Shown: piece by piece, positions 1,526 to 34,123 of the stretch
Numbering within the stretch: position 1 is the first letter of the stretch
How the letters are laid out: every line of letters begins with the position of its first letter
Assembly: GCA_016764995.1 (NCBI GenBank)
Contig: JAESQU010000198.1
Location: 1-39,527, forward strand
DNA length: 39,527 bases
Direction of reading: 5' to 3'
From: SAR324 cluster bacterium
GTDB lineage: Bacteria > SAR324 > NAC60-12
Notes under the pieces: model-generated
The model's input: only the letters and a program-made list of their open reading frames with translations
Database searches by the model: none
What the model was told of the DNA's origin: nothing
Translations under genes and position numbers: made by a program

Positions 1526-2143
1526 ATGCAATTTTCTACGAAAAAAATAATTAACGTTTTGCTAATTTTTCTATTTTTCTTCTCTTTTGCTTCAACATCA
1601 CTTTTTGCGGATGAAATCAGTGAAATACGTACAATGACAAAAGAAAAAGTTGATCTTGTCATTAACACACTCAGAGATGAGAGTTTGAGTAAAGAAGAAA
1701 AAAAGGAAAGAATTTTAACAACAATCGATGGTCTTTTTGATTTTAGTTTGATGGCAAGATTGAGTTTAGGCAAAAAGCACTGGAAATCGCTCAGTAAGGC
1801 CGGTCGAAAAGAATTTTCTGAACTCTTCGTGGAGAGGCTAAAACAATCTTATTTGGACAAGCTTGACCTTTATACGGATGAAGAAGTTGTGGTTGGAGAC
1901 GCAAAATTGACCAAGAAAAATCGGGTGGAGGTGCTGACCTATCTTGTCAGCAAGGACGATAAAAAAGAGATGACATACAAACTTTACAAAACAAAGAAAA
2001 AGGGTTGGATGGTTTATGATGTTGATGTTCTTGGAGTAAGCATTGTTCAGACTTATCGCTCCCAGTTTTCAGGAATTTTAAAAAAAGAATCATTGGAAGA
2101 ATTAATTGAGCGTCTGCGTTCTTTAGGAGAATTGGGGTCTTGA
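1526..2143 (+). CDS. mlaC: MlaC/Ttg2D-family periplasmic phospholipid-binding protein
   Basis: A 205-residue secreted protein with a signal peptide (about 1-28, cleavage after SLFA) and the MlaC (toluene-tolerance Ttg2D, HpnM-like) fold. Blocks include the helical LFDFSLMARLSLGKKHWKSL, then FSELFVERLKQSYLDKL and, near the end, the strand KKGWMVYDVDVLGVSIVQTY. MlaC carries a phospholipid across the periplasm between MlaA and an inner-membrane complex. Residues 127-159 are strongly basic (KLTKKN, KDDKKE, YKTKKKG). The stop overlaps the next ATG (TGATG), so translation is likely coupled to the RND gene. No mlaFEDB genes are next to it. Confidence 0.88.
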   Translation: MQFSTKKIINVLLIFLFFFSFASTSLFADEISEIRTMTKEKVDLVINTLRDESLSKEEKKERILTTIDGLFDFSLMARLSLGKKHWKSLSKAGRKEFSELFVERLKQSYLDKLDLYTDEEVVVGDAKLTKKNRVEVLTYLVSKDDKKEMTYKLYKTKKKGWMVYDVDVLGVSIVQTYRSQFSGILKKESLEELIERLRSLGELGS

Positions 2144-4656
2144 TGTTGAGGAAATTCTATGACAAATTCATTCTAACTTACCCTAAAAGCATTTTGCTTT
2201 TGATGCTGATTTGCATTGCGGCATTGGGTTATCAAGCAAGATATTTAGAAATTGATGCATCTGCAGAAACTCTGTTGCTTGAAGATGACAAAGATCTGGC
2301 CTTTACACGCAAAGTAAATGAACGTTATGGAAGCAGCGATTTTCTTGTCTTAACTTACAGTCCAAAAGGGGATTTGCTTGCGGACAACACTTTAAATTCT
2401 TTGCGTAAATTGAGTGCAGAATTGCTTGCGTTGGATAGAGTTGAATCCGTAGATTCTATTTTAAACGTACCTTTGCTGGAAAGCCCCCCCAAGCCGGTCA
2501 GTGAACTTATAAAAAATGTTCCGACGCTGGAATCTCCCGGAATTGATAAAGCACTTGCCAAAAAAGAATTTCTCAATAGTCCAATCTACAGAGATAATCT
2601 CGTCAGTCCGGATTTCAAAACCACTGCATTGCTGATCAATCTGCATGATGACCCCTTGTATCGTGAACTGTTGCAGCAACGGAATAGTTTGCGGAAAAAA
2701 GAAAAGGAGCAAAGCCTGAGCTCTGTGGAGCAACTGGAGTTGGAAAAAGTGCTACGGGATTTCAAAAATCACCGCGACAAAATGCGACTGATTGAGCACA
2801 ATAATATTTCTAAAGTCCGCGCAATTGCGGATAACTACCGAGGAGACGCAAAGATATTTCTTGGTGGTGCAAGTATGGTTGCGGATGATCTGATCACTTT
2901 CATTAGAAGCGATCTTCAAGTTTTTGGCAGTGCGGTTTTTGTTTTTTTAATGCTCACACTCTGGGTTATTTTCAGACAGTTGCGTTGGATTTTACTTCCT
3001 TTGATTACCTGTAGTTTTTCTGTTGTGACAACCAGTGGATTTTTAGGTCTTTTTGGCTGGGAAGTTACAGTGATTTCCTCAAATTTCATTTCCATCCAAC
3101 TGATAATCACAATGGCAATTACAATCCATTTGATCGTCCGTTACCGTGAATTGGCGAGATTAAATCCTGAAATGGATCAGCGTCAGTTGATTTTGGACTC
3201 AACGATATTTATGGCCAGACCTTGTACTTTTGCAGTGTTGACGACAGTCGTTGGTTTTGCGTCACTTGTCCTGAGCGGAATTTTGCCGGTCATGAATTTT
3301 GGCTGGATGATGAGCGCGGGAATTGGAGTTTCACTATTTCTGACGTTCTTGATTTTTCCGGTGCTCTTAATGCAGATGCCGAAGGCGATGCCTAACACTT
3401 CCTTTGAGTCGCGCTTTGCATTGACCAAAATATTTGCCGATATCACAGAACGACATGGAAAGAGCATACTTTTTATCAGTGTTGCCGCGTTCATCATTAG
3501 TATTGCCGGCGCGGCAAGACTGAATGTGGAAAATAGTTTCATTGATTACTTCAAGGAATCTACTGAAATTTATCAGGGAATGAAATTAATTGACCAACAA
3601 CTTGGTGGAACAACTCCACTGGATTTGATAGTTAATCTTGAACAAAGTGAAGATGAATTTCAGCAGACCGAACAAGAAAATAAAGCTGATGCAGAAGTGG
3701 AAGATGAAGAAGAGTTTGATGCCTTTGAAGAAGAATTTGAGGAAAGTGCCGGAGAAGCACAATACTGGTTCACTGCTGAAAAAATGGCGCGGATTGAAAA
3801 AATACACGATTACCTGAATGGACTGGAGCAAACAGGAAAAGTGCTTTCACTCGGGACTATGCTCAAAATTGGGAAAACCCTTAATTCCGGAAAACCGCTG
3901 GATAATTTTATGCTCGCGCTTCTTTACAACGAACTTCCGGAACGTTTTCGCAAAATTATTATGGATCCTTATGTTTCTGTTGAAAACAATGAGGCGCGGT
4001 TTTATGTGCGGATACGTGATTCGGAACCTAATCTGAGGCGAAATGAACTTTTGAAACAAATTCAGTTTGATCTAAAGGACAAGTTGGATATTCCGGAAGG
4101 AAAATGGCAGCTCGCAAATTTGCTTGTACTCTATAACAATATGCTGCAAAGCCTTTTCAAATCACAAATACTCACTTTGGGAGTAGTAATAGTTGCATTT
4201 CTAATCATGTTCATATTTCTGTTTCGCTCAATTACAATTGCGCTGATCGCGATTTTTCCAAATGTACTTTCAATTGGCGTGGTGCTGGGTTTCATGGGCT
4301 GGATGGGAATTCCGCTGGACATGATGACCATTACAATTGCGGCAATCAGTGTCGGAATTGCAGTAGACAACACCATTCACTATATCCACCGCTTCAAGCA
4401 TGAGTTTACTATAGACCGCAACTATCTGGCGGCTATGCACCGATCTCACGAAAGTATCGGTTACGCTATGTATTACACATCCATTACGATCATCATCGGC
4501 TTTTCAATTCTTGTGCTCTCTAAATTTATTCCGAGCATCTATTTTGGTTTATTGACCGGACTGGCTATGTTGATTGCTCTGGTTGCGGCACTGACGCTTT
4601 TGCCGCAATTGCTGATTGTCCTGAAACCTCTGGGTCCGGAAAATCAAAAAGCATAA
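2143..4656 (+). CDS. RND/MMPL-family lipid transporter, HpnN-like
   Basis: An 837-residue inner-membrane RND (MMPL) protein. One N-terminal membrane helix (about 13-32) is followed by a large periplasmic loop, then a five-helix bundle (about 258-420), another helix (443-463), a second periplasmic loop and a final bundle (about 675-830). The motif GIAVDNTIHYIHRF carries the conserved Asp of the proton pathway. Length and context resemble HpnN, which works beside the MlaC-like HpnM in hopanoid transport; no hopanoid genes are visible here, so the cargo is inferred to be a lipid. Residues about 500-541 in the second loop are an acidic insert (EEEFDAFEEEFEES). I chose the ATG at 2143, which overlaps the mlaC stop, over a TTG one codon earlier. 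Confidence 0.85.
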   Translation: MLRKFYDKFILTYPKSILLLMLICIAALGYQARYLEIDASAETLLLEDDKDLAFTRKVNERYGSSDFLVLTYSPKGDLLADNTLNSLRKLSAELLALDRVESVDSILNVPLLESPPKPVSELIKNVPTLESPGIDKALAKKEFLNSPIYRDNLVSPDFKTTALLINLHDDPLYRELLQQRNSLRKKEKEQSLSSVEQLELEKVLRDFKNHRDKMRLIEHNNISKVRAIADNYRGDAKIFLGGASMVADDLITFIRSDLQVFGSAVFVFLMLTLWVIFRQLRWILLPLITCSFSVVTTSGFLGLFGWEVTVISSNFISIQLIITMAITIHLIVRYRELARLNPEMDQRQLILDSTIFMARPCTFAVLTTVVGFASLVLSGILPVMNFGWMMSAGIGVSLFLTFLIFPVLLMQMPKAMPNTSFESRFALTKIFADITERHGKSILFISVAAFIISIAGAARLNVENSFIDYFKESTEIYQGMKLIDQQLGGTTPLDLIVNLEQSEDEFQQTEQENKADAEVEDEEEFDAFEEEFEESAGEAQYWFTAEKMARIEKIHDYLNGLEQTGKVLSLGTMLKIGKTLNSGKPLDNFMLALLYNELPERFRKIIMDPYVSVENNEARFYVRIRDSEPNLRRNELLKQIQFDLKDKLDIPEGKWQLANLLVLYNNMLQSLFKSQILTLGVVIVAFLIMFIFLFRSITIALIAIFPNVLSIGVVLGFMGWMGIPLDMMTITIAAISVGIAVDNTIHYIHRFKHEFTIDRNYLAAMHRSHESIGYAMYYTSITIIIGFSILVLSKFIPSIYFGLLTGLAMLIALVAALTLLPQLLIVLKPLGPENQKA

Positions 4657-27224: not shown

Positions 27225-28076
27225 ATGATAAAAAATCATTTTTGGATTTTAGCCCTGCTATTCATCTTGTTCGGTCTTCCAAATAGCGTAAGCGCTGTTA
27301 GCTGTAAAGATTTAAATACTCCTGAAAAGATCAGTGAATTCATGAAAAAATCTAATCAGTCAAGTCCACTTTTGCTAAAGAATATCAGTTTTACTTTGCT
27401 TTTAGATGCATGTGAGGGCAAGGTGTGCAAATCTAAAAGCAAGCGTGCAGCACAAAAAGAAAAACTCCGGATTTTAAAATTTAAAAACAAACGTCGTATT
27501 TTTGCTGAAAAAGGTCCGAATGCACCTCGTTGTGTTATCCAACGAGGAGGGCGGCGTTTTGTCTGTTCAAGTTGTAGCATAGTTTCCAACGAAAACTGTC
27601 GAAGTTTTCCCTCAGACGGCAGCACAATTTTTCCTGGAACAAACATTGATACAGCCGATTTTGCTTTAACTTCCAATCCGGCAAGTGATATGAGCTGTTC
27701 AAAATTGAAAAATCCAAAATTTTTCAAAATAAAAACTATAATCAAAGCCGAATCAGGCGAAAGTGAAAAAACGTATGACAAGGTGCTGAGTTATTATGAT
27801 AAGGAAAAAGGTGTGCCGATCATGATGAATTTTTTTGCGGATAATGTTCTCCGTAAAGTCTATCGTTTCTTTCCGAAATATTATACCAAGGTTGGCGGAC
27901 AGTGGTTTTCAACTGTGATGCGTGTACGTACAACATTAGGAAAAGAGAAAAAATTCATTTTTGAAACATTGACTAATGTTGACAAAAAAAATGGAAAACT
28001 AAAATTGTATCTTGATTTATCTGACGATCCCGATCTCAAAAATGTGTCTCCAGAATCACTATTCATCACTGACTGA
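27225..28076 (+). CDS. Cys-rich LolA-like (outer membrane lipoprotein-sorting-like) periplasmic protein
   Basis: A 283-residue secreted protein; signal peptide about 1-24 (ending VSA). The C-terminal half resembles the LolA-like proteins that accompany MMPL transporters: VLSYYDKEKGVPIMMNFF, VLRKVYRFFPKYY, GGQWFSTVMRVRTTLGKE. These form a half-open lipid-binding beta fold. Two things are unusual: eight Cys in the mature protein (an even number, so disulfides are likely) and a very basic stretch at 67-91 (KSKSKRAAQKEK, KFKNKRR). AGGA lies 8 bp before the ATG. It heads a three-gene operon with a beta-barrel and an RND exporter, so it is probably the soluble shuttle between them. Confidence 0.75.
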   Translation: MIKNHFWILALLFILFGLPNSVSAVSCKDLNTPEKISEFMKKSNQSSPLLLKNISFTLLLDACEGKVCKSKSKRAAQKEKLRILKFKNKRRIFAEKGPNAPRCVIQRGGRRFVCSSCSIVSNENCRSFPSDGSTIFPGTNIDTADFALTSNPASDMSCSKLKNPKFFKIKTIIKAESGESEKTYDKVLSYYDKEKGVPIMMNFFADNVLRKVYRFFPKYYTKVGGQWFSTVMRVRTTLGKEKKFIFETLTNVDKKNGKLKLYLDLSDDPDLKNVSPESLFITD

Positions 28077-29934
28077 AAATTCACCAATCGGTTCCTCGGG
28101 AGCAGAGTTTTTTGACCACTTGACCAGACATTCGGTCTTGCGGGGCTTTTTGCTTTCGGCGCTATTTACGCTTGCCCTCATAGTTATTGTTCCTCCTGCA
28201 TTTTCCCAGGATAGCAGTGATCCAAATTTTCAGAAAAGTTTAGCAGAAGACCCCCTTGCTGAGTCTGACGAAGTTCTTGGTTTAGAAGAAGACCCCCTTG
28301 CTGAGTCTGACGCTGATCTTGGTTTAGAAGAAGACCCCTTTACAGAATCAGACGCTGATCTTGGTCTGGAAGAAGATCCTTTTGCTGAGTCTGAAGTTGA
28401 TCCTGGTCTGGAAGAAGACCCCCTTGCGGAATCTGACGCTGACCTTGGTTTAGATGAAGATCCACTTGCGGAATCTGATGTTGATCTTGGTTTAGATGAA
28501 GACCCCTTTACAGAATCTGACGCTGATCTTGGTTTGGAAGAAGATCCTTTGGAGGGAGATTCAACCGAATTGGAAGATGTAGTAAATCAAGATTCCGAAG
28601 AACAATTTGAAGAAGAGGAAGAATTTCAGCCAAGAATTACTTTCAGTCATGAAGTAAAAACTATGTTTGGTGGAAGTGAAACGTATGGCTTGTCGGTTTT
28701 GGATCCTTTGCTGAGTGAGATCAAGGAACTCCGTTTTGTATCCACTTATGATCAATCCGTAAAAGTCCAAACATCTCCGCGAATGTACAATTATTTCCGA
28801 CTTTCCATCAGCTTTTCGCAAAATTATGAATTAAAGAAGCAACGTATTTTTGACGGTTTTGCCAGCATACGTGAAATATATTCAAATTATCGTGTTGGCG
28901 CGCACCAAATACGTTACGGAACCCAGATTTTTGGTCTTGGCAAAGTTGATCTAGATAAGGTGATTGATGTATTGCACATGAACAACGTTATGGGCCTTTA
29001 TACTTTTGATCCGGATGATACAAAAGATGCCATTCCATCGATCAGATACAATTGGTTTCGTGGTGAACACACGGCCACTTTGTACTTGTCTCCGATTCGG
29101 CAGCAAACATTTGGAATGAAGTTTACAGAATTTCGTGAAGAAGTAGAAAAAAAAGAAGATGATAATGAGGAAAATATAGTCTCATTTTTGCGCGATTATT
29201 ATGGTTTGCAATATCAATGGACTGGGGATGTCTTTGATACAAGGTTTGGCGTGTTTCACTGGTTTGATTCGAATCCATATATAAAGTTTGAATATCAGCG
29301 AGTTGCGGACAATGGAACAACAACTTTGCAAGGTTCTTTTGAAAACATGCTTTCTAAGTATGATGAGCACGAAACACGATCTGATTTCTTAACCCTCGAA
29401 ATAGACGCAATCTGGAGCGATATGGTATGGAAATTGGAATCAGGTTTATTTAAGAAAAGAAATTTATACTCATACGAAATACCGGAGGGAAAACACATTC
29501 GCCTTTCAACTGTCCGGACTCCTCACTTTGCATTTGCGACTTCGTTTGAGAGGACATTCCGGTATTTTTATTGGCTAATGATCTATTCCCATCGCAAATC
29601 GTATGATGTTCCAGCAGGCTCCCACATTTTTCTGTATGAAAACGAGTCAAATCTCATACCCAGAAAAAGGGACGTTGTGCGGAATCAAATCTCTGGAGTG
29701 GCTGTTCTGAAAACTCCTGACAATTCTTTGCGTATAACAATGCTGAATTATCAGACTTGGCCTTTCACACAGCGTGGTTTTGCTTCAATCTTTACCTGGG
29801 ATCGTTACAAACAGGACATGGAACTGGAAATCAAGTTTTTTCGTTTAAAAACAGATAGGCAAAAAATGTTAGAAGACAATATTATCACAAATCAGATTTT
29901 TTTGACCTACACCCAAAAATTTACCGCAAACTGA
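28042..29934 (+). CDS. Predicted outer-membrane beta-barrel with N-terminal acidic repeats
   Basis: About 630 residues. A signal peptide (LRGFLLSALFTLALIVIV, cleavage near FSQ) is followed by seven acidic 14-residue repeats and more acidic sequence. From about residue 195 the pattern is alternating strands rich in Tyr, Phe and Trp, such as RVGAHQIRYGTQIFGLG, HTATLYLSPIRQQTFGM and DTRFGVFHWFDS. It ends IFLTYTQKFTAN, as in an outer-membrane barrel. The position between a LolA-like protein and an RND exporter is typical of DUF1302-like partners, but I cannot confirm that family. The start is uncertain: ATG 28042 overlaps the previous gene by 35 bp; a TTG at 28120 gives a cleaner signal peptide. 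Confidence 0.7.
   Translation: MCLQNHYSSLTENSPIGSSGAEFFDHLTRHSVLRGFLLSALFTLALIVIVPPAFSQDSSDPNFQKSLAEDPLAESDEVLGLEEDPLAESDADLGLEEDPFTESDADLGLEEDPFAESEVDPGLEEDPLAESDADLGLDEDPLAESDVDLGLDEDPFTESDADLGLEEDPLEGDSTELEDVVNQDSEEQFEEEEEFQPRITFSHEVKTMFGGSETYGLSVLDPLLSEIKELRFVSTYDQSVKVQTSPRMYNYFRLSISFSQNYELKKQRIFDGFASIREIYSNYRVGAHQIRYGTQIFGLGKVDLDKVIDVLHMNNVMGLYTFDPDDTKDAIPSIRYNWFRGEHTATLYLSPIRQQTFGMKFTEFREEVEKKEDDNEENIVSFLRDYYGLQYQWTGDVFDTRFGVFHWFDSNPYIKFEYQRVADNGTTTLQGSFENMLSKYDEHETRSDFLTLEIDAIWSDMVWKLESGLFKKRNLYSYEIPEGKHIRLSTVRTPHFAFATSFERTFRYFYWLMIYSHRKSYDVPAGSHIFLYENESNLIPRKRDVVRNQISGVAVLKTPDNSLRITMLNYQTWPFTQRGFASIFTWDRYKQDMELEIKFFRLKTDRQKMLEDNIITNQIFLTYTQKFTAN
28246..28539 (+). repeat. Seven tandem 42-bp units encoding an acidic 14-residue repeat
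   Basis: Seven in-frame 42-nt units follow without spacers, with a partial eighth from 28540. The protein consensus is EDPLAESDADLGLE, varying at positions 4-5 (LA, FT, FA), 8-10 and 14. Each unit carries six or seven acidic residues and no basic one. Silent and replacement differences among units show the array is not a very recent duplication, although blocks of neighbouring units are nearly identical. Confidence 0.95.
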
Positions 29935-29941
29935 TTCAAGT

Positions 29942-32900
29942 ATGTTTGTCCGCTTTTTCACCACTGTAAATCAGTATCCTAAATCTATCATCCTAGTACT
30001 TCTTGCCCTCAGCACATTCTTTTTTGTGCAGGCAAGGGACGGCCTTTTTGATCCAGTCAGCGGAAAATTACGTATCAACAGTACAGTTGAACCTTTCATT
30101 GAGCGCGATTCAGGAGCCTACCAACAATTTCTTGATGCCAGAGAGGCTTTTGGCAGCGAAGAAGTGGTTGTGATTGCTCTGCACAATACAGAAAAAAAGC
30201 CGATTGGACTCGAATTTCTGTTGACACTGTCGCACTTGAAAACAGAAATTGAATCCAAAGTTCCTGGAATTAGCAAAGTCATCAGTATGCTGGATATTCC
30301 ACAAGCCTCAGGAAAATGTGCAGGTAAATCCTATTTTCATCAAATGGGAATTGGTTCAGTTTGTGTTTCTGTTTTGGAAAAATATGAGCATGAAATTTCC
30401 TGCTTGAACAGTTCTGCGTCAGAAAAAACTTATGTGCCTGAAAAAGAGGATAATTTTGAAGAAAGTCTCGAAGATGGATTAGAGGAAAGTCTGGAAGAAA
30501 GTCTCGAAGAAGGTTTAGAGGAAAGTCTCGATGAAGGTTTAGAGGAAAGTCTTGAAGAAAGTTTAGCGGATAGTTCAGCTGATTCCAGCGGAATTATGAC
30601 AGAAACAGATGAGTCCGAAGAATCAATTTTGGACTGCACGTTAGAAAAATCAAATGCAAGTCCAGAAAAATTACATGCTGATGCAGAGGCAAAAATAAGT
30701 AAAACGGTCAGCCGTTTGAAAAGTCATCCTCTTTTTCAAGGCGATGTGCTCTCCAAGGATGCGAACACTGCCGCATTGATTCTTACCTTCAGTCCCGAAT
30801 CAAAACCTGAATCAGACAACACCCAAACAATTCTGAAAGATCTGTTGCTTAAACATCAAAAAGACTCAGAAGTTGCTGATACTCTTCGCATTGCTTATGC
30901 CGGACAACCACGGCAAATAAACAAGGCCAGCCGTTTAATTCAGCAGGATATGCAGCGCATTCTTCCAATGAGTTTGCTCTTGATCGTAATCGTGCTTTTA
31001 ATTGCATTCCGGAGTATCAAGGCTGTTTTTGTACCACTGTTTGTTGTTTTGTTCGGGATCCTCTGGACAGCCGGAACCATCGGTTGGATCGGCGATGAAC
31101 TCAATTTGGTCACCATGGCCTGTGCGCCGATTATAGTTTGTGTAGGCAGCGCATACGTGATTAAGTTTCTCAATCAATATCAGACAGAAGCACTGCAAAT
31201 CAAGCAAGCAAGAAGTTCCGGAGAACCTCCGGCAAAAATTCCGGAAGTGATTTTTGCAACCCTTACTTCGGTAACTGTTCCTGTGACCGTGACTGCCATC
31301 ACAACCGTCGCAGGATTTATCGCACTTATGGTCAGTCCAATTCCCGCAGTTCAGCAATTGGGACTCTATTCAAGTGTTGGTATTGTTTCCATAAATCTAT
31401 TCACACTCACCCTAGCTCCCGCATTACTGCACTTTATCCACATGCCTGATTTAGCACAAACTGAAGACGGCAGTGGTTTCCTAAATCGTTTTTTTCATAT
31501 TATTGTGGAATGGCTTCGGCTTCATTCAAAACGTATAATCTGGATTTGGCTTTTGATTGCAGGCTTTGCTGCTTTAGGTATGTTGGGACTGAGCATCAAC
31601 AGTTCTACCAAGACTTTTCCGGAAGAGAGTATGCTGGTAAAAGACTTAAAGTTGATTGAAAATGAATTGTCCGGCACAGATACTTTGCGCTTATTATTCA
31701 GGGCACAAACAGCTGGTGATAATCAACAGGCCTCGTCAATCAATCCCTTGAAAACAGCTAAAACAATTTATGGACTGAGGGAGCTTCAAGATTGGTTGTT
31801 TCAGGTAAAAGGTACAACAGAGATTGGGAATATAGCAGGACTTAGAATCGATAAAATTCATTCTCCGGTTGATATTATTGAACATTACCGCATGGGTCTT
31901 GAAAAATTATCTGATGAAGAAGTTGCTCAATATTTCGAAAAAACCAGTAAAAATGGCCCCAAATTTTTAAGTGACGCGGAAGATGTTTTGCAGGTAACTA
32001 TCAGAATGCGCAGCAGTGGATCCACCTCATTTCTGGCACTGAGGGATTCGCTGTTAATAAAGGTTCCGGAGTTATTGCCTCATTTGCAGTTCAGTTATAC
32101 AGGTGGAGGAGTGCTTTCCAGTGAGTCGGCAAACAACATTGCGCAAGGTCAAATAAACAGCGTTATTCTGGCGTTGATTATCGTTTTCGTAATTCTGTCG
32201 ATGCTCTTTCTTTCCTGGAAGATGGGCGTGATTGCCCTGTTTCCAAATGTGATAACAATCCTGATATTTTTTGGTTCTCTCGGATGGCTTGATATTCCAA
32301 TTGGAGTAACAATCTCAGTGATTGCGGCGATTGCCCTGGGAATTGGTGTAGACGACACAATCCATTTTTTGAGCCACTATAACGAATATGCCAATAAACT
32401 GAGGAACAAACGCAAGGCATCATTGAAAACATTACCGATTGTTGCGCGGCCGATGTTGTTTTCGACTATTGCTCTGTCTGCGGGATTCATCCTCTTTGCA
32501 CAATCGGAGATGGAATCTCAAGTTCTGTTTGGAACTTTCACTGCATTTACCTTGCTCGTCTGCTTAGCAATTGACATGACCTTTTTACCATCTGTTGTGA
32601 TGGAGACAGGATTGATAACGGTTTGGGATTATGTTGGCTTAAAATTTGATGAAAAATTTATAAAAGGAATAGACCTCTTTCAGAACATGACTGTCAGAGA
32701 AGCAAAAATTGCAAGTCTGATGGCCTACACAGAAGACCTGAAACATGGTTCGCGGCTCTTTTCACAAGGAGATATTGGTGATGAAATGTATGTAATACTG
32801 GAAGGATCTATTGCAATCTTTCTGGAAAAAGACGGGAAACGTACTGATCTTGTGCGTTTGGAAAAAGGAAATACATTTGGTGAGATGGGACTCTTCAGGA

Positions 32901-33592
32901 AAGCGGAACGAAGCGCCAGTGCAGAAGCTGCTGAAAAAACGAGACTGCTGGTCGTTAATCGTGATTGTCTGGATCCGCTGAAAAAACGAAATCCCAAAAT
33001 TGCTGCAAAACTGTTTTTAAATTTAGCAAATCGTCTTCAATCGTCTTTGAAAGAGACAGATGAACGTTTGCTTACACAAAAAGATTTTAACCTCACAAGT
33101 CTTGAGGCAAAGTTAAACGCGGATGAAAAATTAGCGGAACAGGAAAGTTCGACTAATCCTGCGGAACTTTGGGAAAATCTTGGCGCAAAATGGCGTCACA
33201 AATTACAATCGTACAGTGAGACTCATTCTGTTCCGAGAGGAAAAAGATTATCAAAAATTAAAAATAATAAAGGCGACTACTTGTTCATCACGTCTGGAGC
33301 AATTGAGATTGAGTCGATAGTTTTACCTAAAAGCAAAACATTTTCTGTGGGATATTGCTGGACAAGGGAAGATTTTGATTTAATAGGAGAATTCGCGCTT
33401 TGTACAGGAAACAAAGCAGCGTCTGCACGAGCAATCGCACGCCAGGATTCAACTCTATTGCAATTTAGCGCGAGCAATCTTTTAGCATTGTCTAAAAAGG
33501 AACCACGAATTGCCGCGCAATTCCTTGAAGACGTGGTTTGTATGCTTTCAGACCAGCTTGCCGTTGCCGATAAACGCTTGCAGAATCATTAA
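29942..33592 (+). CDS. RND/MMPL exporter fused to two CRP-like cyclic-nucleotide-binding domains
   Basis: A 1216-residue inner-membrane protein. The RND part (about 1-900) has the usual two halves of six helices with large periplasmic loops; GIGVDDTIHFLSHYNE holds the proton-relay Asp. Periplasmic loop 1 contains an acidic strip (about 167-239). After the last helix, residues about 920-1040 form a cNMP-binding domain (LKHGSRLFSQGDIGDEMYVI, phosphate cassette FGEMGLFRKAERSASA with its Glu and Arg). A second domain (about 1083-1210) reads IGEFALCTGNKAASARA at the cassette and lacks the Arg. Transport is probably gated from the cytoplasm by a cyclic nucleotide; cargo unknown, likely lipid. It starts 7 bp after the barrel gene. 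Confidence 0.88.
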   Translation: MFVRFFTTVNQYPKSIILVLLALSTFFFVQARDGLFDPVSGKLRINSTVEPFIERDSGAYQQFLDAREAFGSEEVVVIALHNTEKKPIGLEFLLTLSHLKTEIESKVPGISKVISMLDIPQASGKCAGKSYFHQMGIGSVCVSVLEKYEHEISCLNSSASEKTYVPEKEDNFEESLEDGLEESLEESLEEGLEESLDEGLEESLEESLADSSADSSGIMTETDESEESILDCTLEKSNASPEKLHADAEAKISKTVSRLKSHPLFQGDVLSKDANTAALILTFSPESKPESDNTQTILKDLLLKHQKDSEVADTLRIAYAGQPRQINKASRLIQQDMQRILPMSLLLIVIVLLIAFRSIKAVFVPLFVVLFGILWTAGTIGWIGDELNLVTMACAPIIVCVGSAYVIKFLNQYQTEALQIKQARSSGEPPAKIPEVIFATLTSVTVPVTVTAITTVAGFIALMVSPIPAVQQLGLYSSVGIVSINLFTLTLAPALLHFIHMPDLAQTEDGSGFLNRFFHIIVEWLRLHSKRIIWIWLLIAGFAALGMLGLSINSSTKTFPEESMLVKDLKLIENELSGTDTLRLLFRAQTAGDNQQASSINPLKTAKTIYGLRELQDWLFQVKGTTEIGNIAGLRIDKIHSPVDIIEHYRMGLEKLSDEEVAQYFEKTSKNGPKFLSDAEDVLQVTIRMRSSGSTSFLALRDSLLIKVPELLPHLQFSYTGGGVLSSESANNIAQGQINSVILALIIVFVILSMLFLSWKMGVIALFPNVITILIFFGSLGWLDIPIGVTISVIAAIALGIGVDDTIHFLSHYNEYANKLRNKRKASLKTLPIVARPMLFSTIALSAGFILFAQSEMESQVLFGTFTAFTLLVCLAIDMTFLPSVVMETGLITVWDYVGLKFDEKFIKGIDLFQNMTVREAKIASLMAYTEDLKHGSRLFSQGDIGDEMYVILEGSIAIFLEKDGKRTDLVRLEKGNTFGEMGLFRKAERSASAEAAEKTRLLVVNRDCLDPLKKRNPKIAAKLFLNLANRLQSSLKETDERLLTQKDFNLTSLEAKLNADEKLAEQESSTNPAELWENLGAKWRHKLQSYSETHSVPRGKRLSKIKNNKGDYLFITSGAIEIESIVLPKSKTFSVGYCWTREDFDLIGEFALCTGNKAASARAIARQDSTLLQFSASNLLALSKKEPRIAAQFLEDVVCMLSDQLAVADKRLQNH
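30458..30565 (+). repeat. Nine acidic E-E-S-L-type tetrapeptide repeats in the RND exporter
   Basis: Nine consecutive in-frame tetrads of the form E-[ED]-[SG]-L (for example EESLEEGLEESL) cover 108 bp, followed by a Ser/Asp-rich tail (ADSSADSSG). The strip lies in the first periplasmic loop (residues 173-208). Its hydrophobic Leu every fourth residue would put all Leu on one side of a helix. Confidence 0.92.
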
Positions 33593-33727
33593 TTATCTTC
33601 CAAGTCCAAAGCAATATTTTCGCTTTCAATACTGAAATATAGTTTTTAATCGTCACAACTCACCAGCAAATTTGAAAATCAGTTTATATTTTAAGTCTGC
33701 AACAAATTCATCCGGTCTGGGTTGAGT

Positions 33728-34123
33728 ATGACCGCTGAAACAGCAATGAAAATTCTGGTTGTTGATGATTTTTCCGCAACACGGCAGGTTGTGATAAATA
33801 CTCTTGAGCAATTTGGTTTCAATAATATTGAAGAGGTTGCCGACGGTTACTCTGCTCTAGTTAGACTTAAATCTGCTCTTTTTGATTTTGTAATTATGGA
33901 CTGGGGAATTTCTCAAATGAGTGGTTTGGACTTGCTGAAGCAAATCCGTGCAGATCCTGAGCTCAAACATATTCCGGTTTTAATGGTCACAGAGGATCAT
34001 TTACAGGAAAATATTGTGGCGGCAATTAAAGCAGGATTGAATGATTATATCATCAGGCCTTTTGACGCAAATATTTTTGCGGAAAAGCTGGAAAAGATTT
34101 TTCAAGATTTAAATCTTCCGTAA
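33728..34123 (+). CDS. CheY-like single-domain response regulator with Lys-to-Arg change
   Basis: A 131-residue receiver domain without an output domain. The acidic pair Asp13/Asp14 (ILVVDDFSATRQ), phospho-acceptor Asp58 (FVIMDWGISQMSGLDLL) and Thr88 (VLMVTED) are intact. The nearly invariant Lys before the cis-Pro is replaced by Arg110 (YIIRPFDANIF), and the Pro of the usual D-W-N-M-P is Ser. The overall sequence is close to chemotaxis CheY (GFNNIEEVADGYSAL). Start: ATG 33728; a TTG two codons earlier is less likely. It stands alone, 135 bp after the RND-cNMP gene and convergent with acyP. Confidence 0.88.
   Translation: MTAETAMKILVVDDFSATRQVVINTLEQFGFNNIEEVADGYSALVRLKSALFDFVIMDWGISQMSGLDLLKQIRADPELKHIPVLMVTEDHLQENIVAAIKAGLNDYIIRPFDANIFAEKLEKIFQDLNLP

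Follow-up and report, generated by a model that had tools for sequence, protein, structure and literature searches.

A SAR324 gene module for a predicted RND pump with cyclic-nucleotide-binding domains, a LolA-like carrier and a DUF1302-related barrel

SAR324 is an abundant deep-ocean lineage. In a stretch of 39,527 nucleotides (the window) from a 2.65-Mb SAR324 MAG that is 85% complete, three adjacent genes encode a LolA-like protein, a predicted outer-membrane barrel and an RND pump that ends in two cNMP-binding domains. Do these genes form a functional unit, and if so, what could it transport and how could it be controlled? The ORF coordinates agree with the first-pass annotation, which had described three neighbouring plus-strand genes with one overlap and a 7-bp gap (Table 1). 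The overlap between the LolA-like and barrel genes is 35 nt with the ATG start, or 65 nt with an in-frame TTG at 28012, which would give a protein of 640 aa (28012-29934); the ATG at 28042 is likelier. The gap lies between the barrel and the pump (29935-29941). The number of promoters and terminators found around the locus is not above that in shuffled sequences. A second RND pump in the window (2140-4656, 838 aa) is without a cNMP domain.

Table 1. Positions in the window of the three genes, their notable segments and the adjoining regulator gene.
Feature	Position	Strand	Remarks
LolA-like periplasmic carrier (predicted)	27225..28076	+	283 aa; signal peptide residues 1-24 by eye; 8 Cys
DUF1302-related outer-membrane beta-barrel protein (predicted)	28042..29934	+	630 aa from ATG
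42-bp tandem array, 7.3 copies	28238..28544	+	acidic EEDP(L/F)xESDADLGL arm between signal peptide and barrel
Barrel domain	28636..29931	+	432 aa; G-x-Q-x3-LGkVD-x4-IDVLH motif, C-terminal YxxxF
HAE3/MMPL-type RND pump fused to two cNMP-binding domains (predicted)	29942..33592	+	1216 aa; 12 TM
Acidic insert, periplasmic loop 1	30404..30634	+	residues 155-231, net charge -28, between the invariant C154 and C232
TM10 D804-D805-x-x-H808	32351..32365	+	candidate proton relay, invariant 17/17
cNMP domain 1	32735..32983	+	residues 932-1014; phosphate-binding cassette G980-E981-x8-R990
cNMP domain 2	33215..33511	+	~residues 1092-1190; degenerate, no cassette Arg in window protein
CheY-like response regulator	33722..34123	+	130 bp downstream of trio

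Within the genus, the neighbourhood that is kept consists of IMPDH, the trio, the response regulator, a ParA-like gene and HSP90, and by itself this would be weak evidence. Beyond the genus, the flanking genes are mostly different, no response regulator is seen beside the module, and the trio is still together. We searched for the barrel in 78 genomes and for the LolA profile in 383 genomes, and both families gave strong E-values in SAR324 only. The 35 SAR324 genomes from beyond the genus divide into 13 with both the LolA-like gene and the barrel gene, one with only the barrel and 21 lacking both (Fisher 9.5e-9, a test that assumes independent genomes, which related SAR324 genomes are not). 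In the barrel-only genome, a contig end cuts the LolA side. The comparison of pump with barrel gives an identical value under the same assumption, and its single exception is again a contig end. The permuted gene orders are separate evidence. The order is pump-LolA-barrel in L065, the LolA-like gene and pump lie opposite the barrel in L067, and the barrel is opposite pump-LolA in L069. Split copies are present in G022: one pairs LolA with a barrel, one pairs LolA with two pumps, and in a third the pump and barrel are 9 kb apart. On contig C19 of this genome (L106:9461-17911), the LolA-like gene is followed by a pump and then, in convergent orientation, by another module pump of 1290 aa, and no barrel adjoins them. 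No fourth gene, AmeC (COG4447-like) included, accompanies the trio outside the genus. Because the genes are co-present outside the genus and remain adjacent despite the permuted orders, the LolA-like protein, barrel and pump are a real module, present together or absent together. This comparison of genome neighbourhoods, in which the LolA-like, barrel and RND-cNMP genes co-occur across SAR324, bears out the proposal in the first-pass annotation that the three belong together.

The body of the pump matches Pfam MMPL (2.4e-36), with Patched and sterol-sensing domain matches too. Its best subfamily is TIGR00921 (HAE3) at 4.9e-54, yet this is below the curated cut-off of the model. By hydropathy the pump has exactly 12 TM segments; its periplasmic loops span residues ~31-346 and ~550-740, and ~330 residues follow TM12. 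With 12 TM segments, the C-terminus and the cNMP domains would be cytoplasmic, provided that the N-terminus is cytoplasmic. The TM4 Asp of several sister pumps is absent from most module pumps, which have GSAY instead, and with this residue missing proton coupling may be asymmetric. In periplasmic loop 1, C126, C141, C154 and C232 are found in 15 of 15 module pumps and in none of 13 other RNDs, so these four cysteines were gained in the SAR324 module pump branch. The acidic insert in this loop varies in length among relatives and is mostly acidic in them. Given its Patched and sterol-sensing domain matches, a pump of the MMPL/HAE3 type would suit the export of a sterol or hopanoid, as by BstABC or HpnN. 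However, the squalene-hopene/oxidosqualene cyclase C-domain PF13243 is present in 0 of 52 SAR324 genomes, while control genomes give matches. We therefore rejected such a substrate and regard this reading as extremely improbable.

The two stretches of the pump that match PF00027 (2e-25 in all) agree with the earlier description of an RND exporter with two cytoplasmic CRP-like domains, the second of which proves to be degenerate. The best PDB matches are PKG, Crp-family, PKA and Epac structures. The fusion is present in all complete module pumps. In domain 1 the GE-x8-R cassette has the same spacing as in PKA. Some domains with the cNMP fold bind no cyclic nucleotide, and the same trio could have cNMP domains with a structural role, or with some other ligand or a protein partner, the pump being constitutive or under transcriptional control. 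This would fit domain 2, where the cassette Arg is gone in the window protein and conservation is poor, and a published report describes CNB domains whose ligands are nucleosides rather than cyclic nucleotides (PMC10959531). Against it, G, E and R of domain 1 are kept in 17 of 17 sequences, from pumps that are only 31-77% identical to the window pump, and class III cyclase domains occur in 52 of 52 SAR324 genomes, at five places in the window genome. We consider a pump whose domains do not sense cyclic nucleotides to be rather unlikely.

Outside the module, there are four strong pump-cNMP fusions in 383 genomes, one in G048 (SAR324) and three in genomes of a small second phylum. In a tree of the pump cores, the cNMP-bearing pumps are placed apart from ten others with a support of 0.885, which is compatible with a single fusion event. 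The grouping of the G048 and small-phylum pumps has a support of only 0.08. No characterised RND-cNMP fusion was found in a literature search, in which coverage of subscription journals was thin. A predicted cyclic-nucleotide receptor built into an RND pump is, within the literature searched, a feature without characterised precedent.

The LolA-like protein of the window matches PF17131 with E=1.6e-5 and 25.1 bits, below the curated cut-off of 30. This family is matched by 14 of the 19 family members at E<=0.1 (best 7.8e-9), and hhalign of the LolA-like family against canonical LolA_like gives E=1.6e-4 with a probability of 50%. The protein thus appears to be a divergent homologue of PF17131, and the profile link is modest. 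With a net charge of +21 in its mature part and eight cysteines (C27, C63, C68, C103, C114, C117, C125, C158), it is the secreted, basic, Cys-rich protein that had been annotated. Six of the cysteines are invariant in the family, while L064 and L065 lack both C63 and C68, a joint loss that would be expected of a disulfide pair. In canonical LolA_like proteins the cysteine count is 0-3, compared with six to eight in the module carrier. Since a VKOR gene is present in the window genome, periplasmic disulfides are plausible. PDB profile searches with the LolA and barrel families gave no informative match, only a weak zinc-finger one, which looks like a cysteine artefact, and 9tp6, an 'outer membrane lipoprotein-sorting protein', at E=0.97. 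In AlphaFold predictions, pLDDT was 34.2 for the LolA-like protein (2 sequences admissible) and 28.7 for the barrel (3 sequences admissible); the half-barrel and barrel folds are predicted from sequence profiles.

The Pfam name of PF17131 is likewise 'outer membrane lipoprotein-sorting protein', and its fold is related to LolA. These points raise the idea that the RND pump stands in for LolCDE, with the LolA-like protein delivering lipoproteins to the outer membrane; a lipoprotein line was one option in the first-pass annotation. However, the module is missing from 21 of the 35 other SAR324 genomes, and being so patchy it cannot be an essential Lol pathway. A match to LolA (PF03548), a fragment only, is found elsewhere in the window genome. 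The partners in the unit are an RND pump and a DUF1302-like barrel, with no LolCDE ABC transporter or LolB, and the related systems with experimental data handle small hydrophobic molecules. For these reasons a lipoprotein line is disfavoured, and we regard it as very unlikely.

The barrel of the window has no Pfam match of its own, and none of the 21 barrel family members matches PF06980 (DUF1302) directly. The relationship appears at the profile level. The barrel domain profile aligns with DUF1302-type barrels in hhalign with E=1.4e-12 and a probability of 97.7%, the canonical barrel profile matches the window protein at 3e-10, and the three canonical barrels that were scanned against Pfam match PF06980 at 1e-11 to 1e-22. 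The barrel domain profile also weakly finds barrels of other bacteria through the motif G-x-Q...LG..D....DVL, and several of these barrels, which lie outside the SAR324 module, adjoin HAE3 pumps and LolA_like genes. Nearly all 21 members have YxxxF, an outer-membrane signature, at the C-terminus or close to it. The window protein has a signal peptide by eye and 16 amphipathic segments, compared with 11.1 +/- 2.4 in shuffles. By its profile, the protein belongs with the DUF1302-type outer-membrane barrels, in agreement with the outer-membrane barrel predicted earlier.

The acidic repeat that had been noticed in the barrel gene is the tandem array of Table 1, and the arm it encodes varies in length and is mostly acidic across relatives. 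Canonical SAR324 DUF1302 barrels (L139:633-2138, L140:5949-7454) carry an acidic repeat arm too, built from a different unit, SVDDLLxGFEEP. Acidic arms are thus a SAR324 habit of such barrels. Over 16 loci, the charge of the LolA-like protein correlates with that of the arm (rho -0.75, p 9e-4), and arm charge correlates with the charge of the pump linker (rho 0.67, p 0.005). Under phylogenetic contrasts only the arm-linker relationship remains (r 0.56, p 0.01), with p 0.13 for LolA-arm. In the canonical SAR324 trios, acidic barrel arms (net -24, -25) stand beside acidic LolA proteins (net -7, -8). Because the contrasts weaken the LolA-arm link and the canonical trios break the pattern, we do not claim an electrostatic relay in which the basic LolA-like protein is held by the acidic arms of the barrel and pump.

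We consider it somewhat probable that the module is a trans-envelope exporter of a hydrophobic or amphiphilic small molecule or lipid, driven by protons and switched by a cyclic nucleotide. The analysis itself establishes the gene unit, the family assignments, the predicted topology, the conserved cassette, cysteines and proton residues, and the presence of cyclase genes. From the protein families we infer the substrate class, a hydrophobic small molecule or lipid; the direction of transport, the gating by a nucleotide, the identity of that nucleotide and a docking based on disulfides are likewise our inferences. In such an exporter, the RND pump, powered by the proton motive force through Asp804/Asp805 of TM10, would extract the substrate from the inner membrane and move it into the porter domains on the periplasmic side. 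The LolA-like protein would receive the substrate in its half-barrel cavity, cross the periplasm with it and pass it on to the DUF1302-related outer-membrane barrel. The pump would be switched or throttled when cAMP or cGMP binds the cytoplasmic cNMP domain 1. Domain 2 would be its degenerate partner, as in tandem-CNB proteins, in which one site can be structural.

The same three proteins could instead bring a hydrophobic substrate inward. DUF1302/DUF1329/RND genes of Pseudomonas putida are essential for the use of Tween 20 (PMC10866462), though this phenotype does not fix the direction. RND pumps of known direction export, and deletion of AmeABCD increases dye accumulation (PMC6394551), so we judge an uptake or retrograde line to be improbable. 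The genes next to the module do not point to a substrate of the exporter. A 2378-aa NRPS-like protein (condensation, AMP-binding, thioesterase) is encoded beside it in G021 (L067:11662-18798), and a KAS III gene is near it in L064. These neighbours, and the PKS in L112 described below, are each near a single relative only. Since neighbours differ outside the genus, no substrate is inferred from them.

More tentatively, we suggest that this is a line specific to SAR324, with Cys-rich docking surfaces that may have co-evolved between pump and carrier, acidic tethers on pump and barrel and a direct cAMP/cGMP switch; its pump could then be the first RND that is allosterically regulated by a cyclic nucleotide. 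The control of RND pumps is usually ascribed to gene expression and substrate. If our proposal is true, a second-messenger receptor within the pump itself would let lipid or hydrophobe export be switched quickly, and cyclic-nucleotide signalling would have an envelope function in SAR324. The trio also offers a testable entry into the widespread and almost uncharacterised RND + LolA_like + DUF1302 systems.

How does the module compare with known systems? The first-pass annotation knew of no characterised system with such a combination. This holds for the cNMP part only, since the RND + LolA_like + DUF1302 trio is itself not new and has published precedents in AmeABCD (PMC6394551) and a P. putida set (PMC10866462). 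What is new in the SAR324 branch is the predicted cNMP-fused pump with an intact cassette, the four gained pump cysteines and the carrier with six to eight cysteines. HpnN and BstABC (PMC10942540) similarly use an HAE3/MMPL pump in lipid transport to the outer membrane, but they have other partners, and SAR324 is without the hopanoid/sterol cyclase. AmeABCD of Castellaniella defragrans combines an HAE3 RND pump, a DUF1302 barrel and a DUF1329 periplasmic protein of the LolA superfamily in one cassette, and without it the cells tolerate monoterpenes less well and accumulate more Nile Red (PMC6394551). Unlike the module pump, AmeD has 787 aa and no cNMP domain, the periplasmic AmeC (COG4447) has no counterpart in the SAR324 module, and no acidic arm or Cys set is described for AmeABCD. 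In P. putida, PP_0765/PP_0766 and PP_2018/PP_2019 link a DUF1302 barrel, a DUF1329 protein, a periplasmic protein and an efflux transporter, the linkage being drawn from phenotype and from predicted contacts among the products (PMC10866462). In contrast to the module, these genes are in two places, no cNMP domain is mentioned, and the context is growth on Tween 20.

Closer to the module are L109-L111 from the small second phylum (G227, G362, G080) and L112 from SAR324 (G048), where an HAE3 pump-cNMP fusion adjoins a LolA_like gene. They differ in having a single cNMP domain, a canonical LolA_like protein and no module-type cysteines, and only L112 has a barrel. The LolA_like gene is directly upstream of the RND-cNMP gene in 3 of 3 small-phylum genomes, with no adjoining barrel. 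In L112:1-14725 (G048:C86), the barrel, LolA_like and single-cNMP RND genes are directly upstream of genes for a 2071-aa type I PKS and another ketosynthase protein, a hint of polyketide or lipid export in G048. RND + LolA_like + DUF1302 trios are found in several bacterial families (L131, L133, L134, L139, L140, L141). The window genome also has a canonical trio, L072 (G000:C159:1216-6232), with an RND pump of 829 aa, a LolA_like protein of 275 aa and a barrel of 568 aa, whose genes have 4-bp overlaps, and an RND + LolA_like pair on contig C200. The canonical trios (L072, L139, L141) have the same three families in the same adjacency as the module. Their pumps, however, are of 775-839 aa with no cNMP domain and none of the four loop cysteines, their LolA_like proteins keep to the low canonical cysteine count, and they share the acidic arm with the module in their SAR324 members only.
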